DNA of 64,000 nucleotides from Synechococcus sp. C9 (GTDB lineage: Bacteria; Cyanobacteriota; Cyanobacteriia; Gloeomargaritales; Gloeomargaritaceae): contig NZ_JALAAD010000001.1 of the NCBI RefSeq assembly GCF_022984075.1, forward strand, positions 2,554,501 through 2,618,500. The letters run 5' to 3'. Position 1 is the stretch's first letter; each line of letters begins with the position of its first letter. The notes beneath the pieces are model-generated. The model was not told the DNA's origin. It did not search any database and saw only the letters and a list, made by a program, of their open reading frames with translations. Shown here one piece after another: positions 47,761-55,026 of the stretch. Position numbers and translations under genes: made by a program.

Positions 47761-48144
47761 TCATCTTGATAAATTGTTGTCGCTCTTCCTCGTTTTGTTC
47801 TTCATAAGAGTATGTTTTTTTTTACGGGTAAAGTTGATTTTTTTAAGGGCTTGACCAACGGTTGTATGACTTACACCGAGAATGACTCCCATTTCTTTTT
47901 GCGTCAACCCTTGATTTGCTTCTACAAATTGGCGAAATCCCTCCAAATCAGTGATCTTAGCACTATGACCTTTTTGATAGTTCTGTTTCGGGCGATAATC
48001 ACCACTTTCTGACCACATTTTTAACCATCTTTGTACGGTTCTTCTGCTAATACCAAATAACTCACTAACCTCAACCAGTTTTGCCCCATTTAAGACTGCT
48101 TCGACTGCTTTTTGACGCAAATCGTAACTGTATGGTCTTGCCAT
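47761..48144 (-). CDS. Outer IS630 transposase, N-terminal ORF (orfA)
   Basis: A 127-residue helix-turn-helix part (SYDLRQKAVEAVLNG, EVSELFGISRRTVQRWLKMW) of an IS630-type transposase. It contains a run of nine A residues (complement of 47815-47823) just after FTRKKK. A -1 shift there continues as TYSYEEQNEEERQQFIKMIKEEKNEDLVYVDQSG, joining the catalytic frame. The downstream half is broken by the inner IS, so this ORF is now a remnant that could at most make a DNA-binding fragment. Confidence 0.85.
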   Translation of the reverse strand: MARPYSYDLRQKAVEAVLNGAKLVEVSELFGISRRTVQRWLKMWSESGDYRPKQNYQKGHSAKITDLEGFRQFVEANQGLTQKEMGVILGVSHTTVGQALKKINFTRKKKHTLMKNKTRKSDNNLSR

Positions 48145-52013: not shown

Positions 52014-52236
52014 GAAATGAAAATTGTGTCTGTCAAAAGCGACACAAGAATTATTTATATTACTGTATCGTAAAGTTTGCCCGCATTTAGAACCCTTTGC
52101 TGATTTGACCGGTTGATTTATATTAACCTGAACCACGACGGGGATGCGCCCCTAGCATTCCTGACCGCCGCTGGGATGCTGTACCCATAAGTTACCTATA
52201 AGTTATAGTGCTAATCAAGTTTTCTAAAGGTTGCCC

Positions 52237-54615
52237 ATGTCCGACCGCCTTGATGGTAACGAAGTCTGTTCCCAGGACACAGCCGTAGCTCCCCTCCAAG
52301 CGCCCTGCGCCTACCCGGTGTTTTTCCGTACCTACAGCCGTCGTTTTCAGGGGGTGCGGGAGTCCTGGGAGCAGGTGTGTGAGCGGACGGTGCGGGATTT
52401 AGCCGTTTTGGGCAAATTTACCCCGGCGGAGCAGGCTTTGGTGTTGGAGATGCAACAGCAGTTAAAGGCACTGACCTCGGGGCGGTGGTTGTGGGTGGGC
52501 GGAACGGATTGGATTCACCAGCCGGAGAATTTTTCGGGAGCCTATAATTGCACCTCCCAGCGGATTCGGGACTGGCGGGGCTTTGGGTTGATGATGGATT
52601 TGGCGATGCAGGGGGCGGGCACGGGGGCGGTGCTGGAGCCTCAGTATTTTAGCCAATTGCCCCCAATTACCACCCGTTTGGAGGTGACGGTGCTGGGGCA
52701 ACCGGGGGACAAACCCGCTGAGGAACGGCAACCATTCACCCAAGTGGAACGCCAGGGGCAGGGGGTGGTGGTGCGGGTGGGGGACTCCCGCCAGGGCTGG
52801 GTGCAGGCGTATCAAAGTTTGCTGGAATTGGCGAGTGACCCCCAGGGCGGGGCGGTACTGGCGGTGACGGTGGATGTGAGCCAGGTGCGTCCCAAGGGGG
52901 AGGTGCTCAAGGGGTTTGGGGGAATTGCCAATCCAGCGTTGTTACCGCAGTTATTTCCCCGGGTGGCACGGATTCTCAACCGGGCAGTGGGGCGGCAGTT
53001 GACCTCGATTGAATGCTGTTTGTTGATTGATGAGGCGGCGGCAACGGTGGTGGCGGGGAATATCCGTCGTTGTCTGCCTGAGGATGCTCTGGTGCATACT
53101 GAGGCTGGATTAGTTCCGATTGCCAAGGTGCGAATTGGGGATCGGGTGCTGACGAGCAAGGGATTCTATCCCGTTACGAACTTCTTTGTGCAGGGGGAAC
53201 AGCCACTCTGCCGTATTCGTACCCAAGATGGCGAGTTTGAGTGTACAGCGGATCACAAAGTTGCTGTACTGACTGATGTTTTTGGACAGTATCGGATGGT
53301 CAGGGCGAAAGACCTCCAACCTGGAGATCGTCTAGTGTTTGTGCCTCGAGCCATTCCTGGTACGCCAACTGAGTTACCCGAATTTCGCAGAGAAATCAAA
53401 GGTAAGACTAAGTCCATTCAGATTCCAGCACTAACCCCTAAAATCGCCTACTTCCTTGGCTATCTTCAGGGCGATGGTTCTGTAAGCTCTGACGGTTCGC
53501 GAGTGCGGTTCAGGGTACACCAAGACAGTCCAGCAGTCCTAGACCGGCTCATTGAAGTTGGGCAAGAATTTGGTCTGGATCGTTACACCCTGAGGACGCC
53601 CGAACAGTGTAAAACGCAAGCCTACGAGCTACAGTTTAATTCTTCCGACCTCAACCAGTATTTGCAACAGTTTAAGAAAGCCTCTCAGCCGTTAAGGGTG
53701 CCGGACTGCATTCTGTTAGGAACTACGGAAATTCGTAAAGCCTTCCTTGCGGGTCTGGCTGATGCTAATGGTTGCCATTCGCAAGGCGTTCTCGTAGCCA
53801 CAGTTCACAAGCGATTTCTCCAACAAGTTCAGGCTCTCTATGCCTCTCTAGGGATTACGGTACGGATGTGCAGTAGCGTTAGGAAACGGAATAACCAGTG
53901 GGAAGGTGAACTCGTTACCGTTGGACAAGCGGCTTTTGAAGCGGTCACTTCAGCCTTTGAATCTCATTCTATCCAGTTTTCTGTAAATCGCAGGGAAGCA
54001 CCAGAGTGGTTTCGGGATCATGGGTTTCCGAAGGAAATGGTCAGACCTCTAGTGAGTTCAGCACTTTACCATTGGAGTGCAGCTCACAAACAAATGAATC
54101 AGCAAACCCTTAAAAAGTACGTTCCCCAGGTTACTGACTTAGTTCCAGTGGCGGTCAAGGGTGTTGATCTGAATGTTCGCACTGCACCTACCTACGATAT
54201 TGAAGTGGCAACCGTCCACGAGTTTGTATGTGAGGGCATTCTTGTCTCGAACAGTGCCGGAATGCGCCAATTTAGCTCGGAGGATCAGGAGGCGGCGGGG
54301 GCAAAGGCAAATCTTTGGCAACAGGATGAACAGGGCAATTGGCGGATTGACCCGGACAGGGATGTCCTGCGGATGGCGAATCATACCCGCGTATTTCACC
54401 ACAAACCCAGTCGGGAAGAATGTATCGAATCCGTGCGGAGCCAGTTTTATTCCGGGGAAGGGGCGGTGCAGTGGGCGGGGGAGGCAATTGCCCGCAGTAA
54501 TCGGGATTTGCTCAACACCCCAGAGAAAAAAGCCCGGTTTTTGGAATTGTACAACACTGACCCCCAGCAGGCACGGGGGTATTTGCGGGAACTGCTTTTA
54601 GCTCAGGGGTCTTAA
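52237..54615 (+). CDS. nrdJ: Class II ribonucleotide reductase NrdJ, N-terminal half with an intein
   Basis: ATG 52237 follows AAAGG and gives 792 residues. The exteins are about 278 and 120 residues and resemble the first ~55% of the monomeric B12-dependent reductase: YPVFFRTYSRRFQG, the first redox Cys in NFSGAYNCTSQR, MQGAGTGAVLEP, IDEAAATVVAGNIRR, SAGMRQFSSEDQEA. The frame ends after RELLLAQGS, before the NPCGE loop that holds the thiyl Cys, and no remaining half follows. The protein cannot be an active reductase alone. Either the second half is encoded elsewhere, or this is a truncated relic. Confidence 0.88.
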   Translation: MSDRLDGNEVCSQDTAVAPLQAPCAYPVFFRTYSRRFQGVRESWEQVCERTVRDLAVLGKFTPAEQALVLEMQQQLKALTSGRWLWVGGTDWIHQPENFSGAYNCTSQRIRDWRGFGLMMDLAMQGAGTGAVLEPQYFSQLPPITTRLEVTVLGQPGDKPAEERQPFTQVERQGQGVVVRVGDSRQGWVQAYQSLLELASDPQGGAVLAVTVDVSQVRPKGEVLKGFGGIANPALLPQLFPRVARILNRAVGRQLTSIECCLLIDEAAATVVAGNIRRCLPEDALVHTEAGLVPIAKVRIGDRVLTSKGFYPVTNFFVQGEQPLCRIRTQDGEFECTADHKVAVLTDVFGQYRMVRAKDLQPGDRLVFVPRAIPGTPTELPEFRREIKGKTKSIQIPALTPKIAYFLGYLQGDGSVSSDGSRVRFRVHQDSPAVLDRLIEVGQEFGLDRYTLRTPEQCKTQAYELQFNSSDLNQYLQQFKKASQPLRVPDCILLGTTEIRKAFLAGLADANGCHSQGVLVATVHKRFLQQVQALYASLGITVRMCSSVRKRNNQWEGELVTVGQAAFEAVTSAFESHSIQFSVNRREAPEWFRDHGFPKEMVRPLVSSALYHWSAAHKQMNQQTLKKYVPQVTDLVPVAVKGVDLNVRTAPTYDIEVATVHEFVCEGILVSNSAGMRQFSSEDQEAAGAKANLWQQDEQGNWRIDPDRDVLRMANHTRVFHHKPSREECIESVRSQFYSGEGAVQWAGEAIARSNRDLLNTPEKKARFLELYNTDPQQARGYLRELLLAQGS
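53071..54252 (+). other. Intein with LAGLIDADG-type homing endonuclease within nrdJ
   Basis: A 394-residue intein is inserted between GNIRR and SAGMRQ. It begins with Cys (CLPEDALVHTEAGLVPIAKV), has the block B TADHKV, and a DOD endonuclease with YFLGYLQGDGSVSSDG and AFLAGLADANG motifs; the second acidic motif reads DANG instead of DADG. The end is YDIEVATVHEFVCEGILVSN followed by Ser+1. The usual penultimate His is Ser here, a known variation. Removal joins the exteins in frame. Confidence 0.93.
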
Positions 54616-54669
54616 AATTAAACTTAGATAAATTAGGTTCAATAAACGCTGTGCAGTAGGGGGTACGCC

Positions 54670-55026
54670 ATGTTAACGCAACTGCTGGTCACGTGGGTGG
54701 TAAACGGGTTGAGCTTATGGCTGATTTCTAAACTGCCCTTGGGTGTGACCTTGGATGGTTTTGGCACGGCACTGTGGACGGCTTTGGCTTTGGGGTTACT
54801 CAATGCCCTGGTGCGACCCATTTTGTGGCTTTTGAGTTTGCCCTTGACGATTCTCACCTTGGGTTTATTTACCTTTGTGATTAATGCGATTATTTTTGGA
54901 TTGGCGGCTAGTTTGGTGGAGGGATTCAAGCTCAAAAATTGGCTGAGTGCCCTGATTGCCCCGATTGTCCTCGGCTTGATCAATTCAGTCCTATTTCAGG
55001 TTTTGCAGACCCCGGCGGCAGGTTAA
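54670..55026 (+). CDS. Phage holin family (DUF360-type) membrane protein
   Basis: A 118-residue protein with four hydrophobic helices (MLTQLLVTWVVNGLSLWLIS; LWTALALGLLNALVRPILWL; LTLGLFTFVINAIIFGLAA; LIAPIVLGLINSVLF). NALVRPILWLLSLPLTILTLGLFTFVINA is the diagnostic block of this widespread bacterial family, called holin-like by homology although no lysis role is shown. It lies 55 bp after nrdJ and 35 bp before uvrA; probably monocistronic or read into uvrA. Confidence 0.85.
   Translation: MLTQLLVTWVVNGLSLWLISKLPLGVTLDGFGTALWTALALGLLNALVRPILWLLSLPLTILTLGLFTFVINAIIFGLAASLVEGFKLKNWLSALIAPIVLGLINSVLFQVLQTPAAG

Follow-up and report, generated by a model that had tools for sequence, protein, structure and literature searches.

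A candidate two-chain class II ribonucleotide reductase encoded by two distant genes in a cyanobacterium of the Gloeomargarita lineage

How does a cell make ribonucleotide reductase (RNR) when its nrdJ gene ends before the catalytic loop? The question is raised by an intein-bearing gene on the plus strand of a 64,000-nucleotide stretch of the Synechococcus sp. C9 genome (contig NZ_JALAAD010000001.1, positions 2,554,501 to 2,618,500; hereafter the window, numbered from its first nucleotide). The initial annotation proposed either a split nrdJ whose other half is encoded elsewhere, or a relic kept by its intein. The first proposal was borne out, as an intact, constrained gene beginning just upstream of the missing NPCGE motif lies 84 kb downstream, outside the window. 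Sequence comparisons across cyanobacteria strongly support the reading that a functional class II RNR is formed here from two separately encoded polypeptides.

The two nrdJ genes and their inteins

The first half of NrdJ is referred to below as the N-half (open reading frame (ORF) 52231-54615 from TTG, or 52237-54615 from ATG, plus strand), and its partner as the C-half. In the following list, and throughout, a slash marks the insertion point of an intein or intron.

52237..53070, plus strand: NrdJ N-half, extein part 1 (278 amino acids); TIGR02505 positions 16-280, PF21995 insertion domain, alignment to 1L1L
53071..54252, plus strand: complete cis-intein (394 amino acids) with a LAGLIDADG endonuclease, at GNIRR/S; PF14528, PF05204, PF14890; Cys start, Asn end, +1 Ser
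54253..54615, plus strand: NrdJ N-half, extein part 2 (120 amino acids and stop), with the split-type tail LYNTDPQQARGYLRELLLAQGS; TIGR02505 positions 277-353; 73 bits with A1, the hidden Markov model (HMM) of the tail
G000:C1:2692695-2696027 (= L086:2196-5528, ATG to stop), plus strand, outside the window: NrdJ C-half; TIGR02505 positions 364-723
L086:2319-3326: C-half intein 1, complete cis-intein, at DFH/C
L086:3717-4868: C-half intein 2, complete cis-intein, at QPAG/T
54670..55026, plus strand: downstream membrane protein, Phage_holin_4_2 (PF04020, E=6.6e-32); context, outside the enzyme

The N-half exteins total 398 amino acids, contain no internal stops, and match the RTPR profile TIGR02505 over positions 16-353 of 724, ending in ...YLRELLLAQGS-TAA with the stop at 54615; the NPCGE finger loop and all downstream parts are not encoded by this gene. 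Extein part 1 comprises the N-terminal region, the allosteric/insertion region and the start of the barrel, and includes the cysteine equivalent to RTPR C119. The intein (borders GNIRR/CLPED...ILVSN/SAGMRQ) matches LAGLIDADG_3, Hom_end and Intein_splicing, and the Phage_holin_4_2 gene follows 54 bp after the stop. The initial annotation was correct on each of these points, having described exteins of about 400 residues ending at RELLLAQGS before NPCGE, a complete intein with endonuclease motifs, and an unrelated membrane protein gene next.

A whole-genome TIGR02505 search located positions 364-723 in a single open frame that shares contig and strand with the N-half. The genome holds one N-half and one C-half, with a summed RTPR coverage of 16-353 plus 364-723, and neither half alone reaches the 340-bit TIGR02505 cut-off. 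The C-half has its own ATG ~30 codons upstream of NPCGE (the sequence before its first intein reads MTQAPERPPQTTDPAIEAELDHRMSRYGLNPCGEILGADFH/C...), its DNA is continuous through NPCGEI with no intron there, and removal of its two inteins leaves exteins of 390 residues. The DFH/C intein (L086:2319-3326) ends in Gln (TGQ/C) instead of the usual Asn, an ending that is identical in two congeners (G013 and G017).

Alignment to the Lactobacillus leichmannii RTPR (1L1L, the sole Protein Data Bank (PDB) match for the halves) places C119, a reducible active-site cysteine, in the N-half, and N406, C408, E410, C419, C731 and C736 in the C-half. The finger loop (NPCGE, with the thiyl-radical cysteine), the other active-site cysteine, the remaining barrel, and the C-terminal redox CxxxxC all belong to the C-half. 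Every known catalytic residue is present, spread over two polypeptides. By profile match the enzyme is a class II RNR of the monomeric RTPR type (TIGR02505), presumably adenosylcobalamin-dependent by family membership, although the single polypeptide of that type is here represented by two genes 84 kb apart.

AlphaFold models, built from 14-sequence alignments and of modest confidence (mean predicted local distance difference test (pLDDT) 68 and 61), were used only for placing the split relative to helices. On the model of the unsplit protein of the sister genus (L011; best PDB match 1l1l), the break point lies between helices 388-395 and 401-409, in a helical linker 14-18 residues ahead of NPCGE (414-418). 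We take this region to be the connection between the barrel halves that leads into the finger loop; on the model, it would be a plausible meeting place for two chains.

Maintenance and proposed assembly of the two halves

Searches with PF02867, PF00268 (NrdB) and PF13597 (NrdD) gave zero matches in the Synechococcus sp. C9 genome (99.98% complete), while positive controls matched; as PF02867 gave no match, TIGR02505 was used in its place. NrdB was also absent from eight of eight genomes of the order. With neither a class I nor a class III enzyme detected, the two-part nrdJ is the only RNR found in this genome. Both halves are under purifying selection as judged by the ratio of nonsynonymous to synonymous substitution rates (dN/dS), which, against the relatives compared, ranged over 0.06-0.12 in the N-half and 0.015-0.07 in the C-half.

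The halves are unlinked in all five of the other congeners having both: in two single-contig chromosomes (G013, at 1.110 and 1.831 Mb; G017, at 3.003 and 0.580 Mb) they lie ~0.7 Mb apart, and in three draft genomes they are on different contigs. The C-half alone was detected in a sixth congener, whose genome is 83% complete, and in the sister genus (G019 = L011) nrdJ is unsplit. The C-half start, MTQAPER..EAELDHRMSRYGLNPC, is shared by Synechococcus sp. C9 and the four congeners in which this part was read.

Inteins vary between species. In all five congeners read (L119-L123), the N-half lacks this intein and is just as open and conserved, and in one species (G016) neither half contains any intein. 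Given the low dN/dS and this variation, both halves are kept as protein-coding genes independently of their inteins. One congener lacking the N-half intein has a ~98-99% identical N-half, and the element was therefore gained or lost very recently. The intein content of the C-half also varies among congeners (L113-L118, L086), at three sites (NP/C408, DFH/C419 and QPAG/T), one species being without all of them.

These data bear directly on the proposal that the N-half is a pseudogene kept solely by a self-maintaining intein. Such a relic was suggested by a gene that ends before its catalytic loop while its intein is intact, but a partner half exists, five congeners keep an open N-half without the N-half intein, dN/dS is below 0.12, and no other RNR was found. 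We consider a relic extremely improbable, and the findings that the initial annotation had named as favouring a pseudogene, a full second nrdJ or a class I RNR together with accumulated stop codons, did not materialize: the genome holds one N-half and one C-half, there was no nrdA/nrdB-type match (PF02867, PF00268), and the N-half has no internal stop.

Could a split intein join the halves into a single chain? Metagenomes have yielded split inteins in nrdJ (Dassa 2009, cited in PMC3653736), the locus is intein-rich, and a split-intein half on the partner had been raised in the initial annotation as something to check. No split-intein fragment was found at either border: the N-half stop comes directly after a native helix, with no N-terminal intein half (IntN), the C-half opens with ATG as MTQAPER..., with no C-terminal intein half (IntC), and every intein of the two genes is complete and inserted elsewhere. 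Protein trans-splicing has, in our judgment, next to no probability here.

As the partner carries no split-intein half, assembly of a two-chain enzyme would have to be non-covalent. Each half would be made and freed of its inteins by splicing, after which the two would associate and rebuild one active site without trans-splicing. It must be set against this reading that assembly and activity are argued from conservation, and from the finding of no other RNR, on the basis of sequence.

The genomic context of both genes was also recorded. A Phage_holin_4_2-type gene lies 3' of the N-half in several congeners as well (flanking DNA of L119-L121 and L123), and the gene 3' of the C-half is peptidyl-tRNA hydrolase-like (MSP..VGLGNPG). 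Consensus NrdR boxes were found neither in the window nor at the C-half locus. A short ORF at 47761-48144 of the window (minus strand) resembles the N-terminal, DNA-binding portion of IS630-type transposases and, judged by eye, is probably an insertion sequence remnant.

Tandem split genes and the origin of the junction

Seven N-halves with the same type of tail were present among 80 relatives, two from Gloeomargarita and five from elsewhere. Run over 390 Cyanobacteriia genomes, the A1 tail HMM gave 19 hits at 53-79 bits, with the remainder at <=42 bits; six of the 19 are from Gloeomargarita and 13 from five other families. In all 13 split genes outside Gloeomargarita, the C-half ATG lies within tens of bases of the N-half stop (tandem cistrons). 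Because a Shine-Dalgarno-like sequence mostly precedes this ATG and the relative frames vary, the tandem cistrons are apparently translated separately.

The tandem genes share a further feature, an intron at NPCG/E, which is found in 13 of 13, vs. 21 of the 73 unsplit genes sampled (a count that ignores relatedness). A paper on Nostoc mentions "split ribonucleotide reductase enzymes" (PMC5987646); the Nostoc nrdJ genes analysed here run unbroken past the split point, their only interruption being the intron. The intron boundaries fit the group I pattern (exon end U, intron end G), and the L008 intron contains an ORF of ~320 amino acids with a NUMOD3 homing-endonuclease motif above cut-off, similar ORFs being present in other introns. 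These cyanobacterial NPCG/E introns (L008:6458-7624 and similar) have a strongly conserved core, TTTTGCCTCACGT..., that is matched by no Rfam family.

An intron that in relatives lies only ~30 codons past the split point might suggest RNA trans-splicing, in which a split intron would join two transcripts in Gloeomargarita. The intron site, however, lies inside the C-half, where the Synechococcus sp. C9 DNA is uninterrupted through NPCGEI; the N-half has its own stop, 54 bp from the next gene; and the Shine-Dalgarno-like sites and changing frames across the junction of the tandem relatives also speak against it. We therefore hold RNA trans-splicing to be very improbable.

Exteins and junctions of the split genes have distinct histories. 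An extein tree built without the junction rejects the split genes as a single clade (approximately unbiased (AU) test, p = 3e-48); the exteins of tandem split genes group by host lineage, the split Pseudanabaena genes being placed within the unsplit Pseudanabaena ones. The 32-residue tails, in contrast, are 51% identical between split genes across families, and 28% between split and unsplit genes. Split tails in Pseudanabaena are 25% identical to those of their own unsplit sisters, while the preceding 67 residues are 98% identical; for Gloeomargarita tails, identity is 50% with those of the other split genes and 30% with that of the unsplit sister genus. At the DNA level, the split L010 and the unsplit L055/L042 are ~80-95% identical until ~210 bp before the intron, cannot be aligned from there to the intron, and return to ~90% or more identity from 30 bp past it. 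In Pseudanabaena, the ~210 bp beside the intron look to have been replaced.

Group I intron homing normally co-converts flanking exon sequence as a by-product (PMC2988022, PMC3984707). We propose that the split junction (stop, Shine-Dalgarno sequence, ATG) arose beside a mobile intron at NPCG/E, and that it spread among cyanobacterial nrdJ genes via co-conversion of the 5' flank: homing into an intact nrdJ would have co-converted ~200 bp of upstream exon with stop, ribosome-binding site and start, each time turning a one-chain into a two-chain enzyme. The Gloeomargarita ancestor would have taken up the junction and lost the intron, and rearrangement would later have separated the cistrons. We regard this history, including the later permanent separation of the halves in Gloeomargarita, as the best available account of the sequence data, with the balance of probability slightly in its favor.

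Its main rival is that the split, while functional, arose independently in each lineage via stop and start mutations, the similar tails being convergent. Extein trees do require several origins, and one contiguous gene (L144, from G494) has a similar tail. We nevertheless judge independent fission unlikely, as unrelated split genes have 32-residue tails that resemble one another, the replacement beside the Pseudanabaena intron is abrupt, and the intron accompanies every tandem split gene, vs. a minority of the unsplit ones.

Several observations weigh against the proposed role of the intron. An Rfam search (including RF00028) of the NPCG/E introns gave no match except in L026, which is a different intron; their group I assignment is putative, drawing on the U...G boundaries and on earlier reports of such an intron in a cyanobacterial RNR gene. 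Introns of split genes largely cluster (two label changes on the intron tree vs. five on the extein trees), but supports on the intron tree are weak. No Gloeomargarita read here retains the intron and, because it is gone, acquisition by the intron route in this genus is argued from the tail sequence. Finally, the similar tail of the contiguous L144 indicates that tail and split are not strictly tied; the tail sequence may therefore predate the split.

The L144 nrdJ is divergent, combining the split-like tail LYQESIEAAKAYLKSL with an intein inserted at the catalytic cysteine; it may be related to the donor of the split junction. No phage donor was found: in the best cyanophage nrdJ hits, adjacent stretches correspond to the two halves and show nothing of this split, and a Microcoleus phage nrdJ that looked split by its match range is actually one long ORF.

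Comparison with known systems

Our literature search returned no paper linking Gloeomargarita with inteins, and the one in which both Gloeomargarita and ribonucleotide reductase appear surveys transcription factors. If the two-chain reading is correct, this system extends cellular split RNRs, earlier known from proteobacteria only and with a whole catalytic core (PMC4520616), to a divided active site with unlinked halves in an indispensable enzyme. It would offer a natural system for studying how the parts of the RNR barrel meet, radical chemistry in a nicked barrel, and the balance of two unlinked genes. If the intron history is also true, a selfish element has spread a lasting change in protein architecture, rather than a neutral insertion. 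For annotation, such genes should not be called pseudogenes, nor should these cyanobacteria be reported as lacking RNR.

The Pseudomonas aeruginosa NrdJa/NrdJb enzyme has been called the only split RNR in a non-viral organism (Crona 2015, PMC4520616). Both are cellular class II RNRs from two genes, and in P. aeruginosa both polypeptides are needed for biological function. There, however, the whole catalytic machinery and the cofactor site reside in NrdJa, NrdJb serving thiol exchange, and the genes form one operon (PMC4520616); here, the enzyme is of the RTPR family, 84 kb separate its genes, the searches found no further RNR, and catalysis is not confined to the larger subunit, as a cut 14-18 residues before NPCGE divides the catalytic cysteines.

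A divided RNR can work, as illustrated by phage Aeh1, in which insertion of mobE cut the large subunit at a critical region into nrdA-a and nrdA-b and the assembled enzyme is fully active (reviewed in PMC2988022). That system is likewise linked to a homing endonuclease, but it is described there as class I and viral, with a free-standing endonuclease gene between the parts, whereas the present enzyme is class II and cellular, with the mobile element ~30 codons inside the C-half or gone. The nrdJ-a/nrdJ-b genes of Thermus phage phiYS40, a viral class II RNR encoded by two consecutive ORFs with a short gap, are comparable in ORF layout (PMC3653736). Closest in family and in kinds of mobile element are the cyanobacterial RNR genes interrupted by introns or inteins (for example a group I intron, Meng 2007, cited in PMC3984707); those are spliced into one polypeptide, whereas the enzyme described here is split between two cistrons or two loci.
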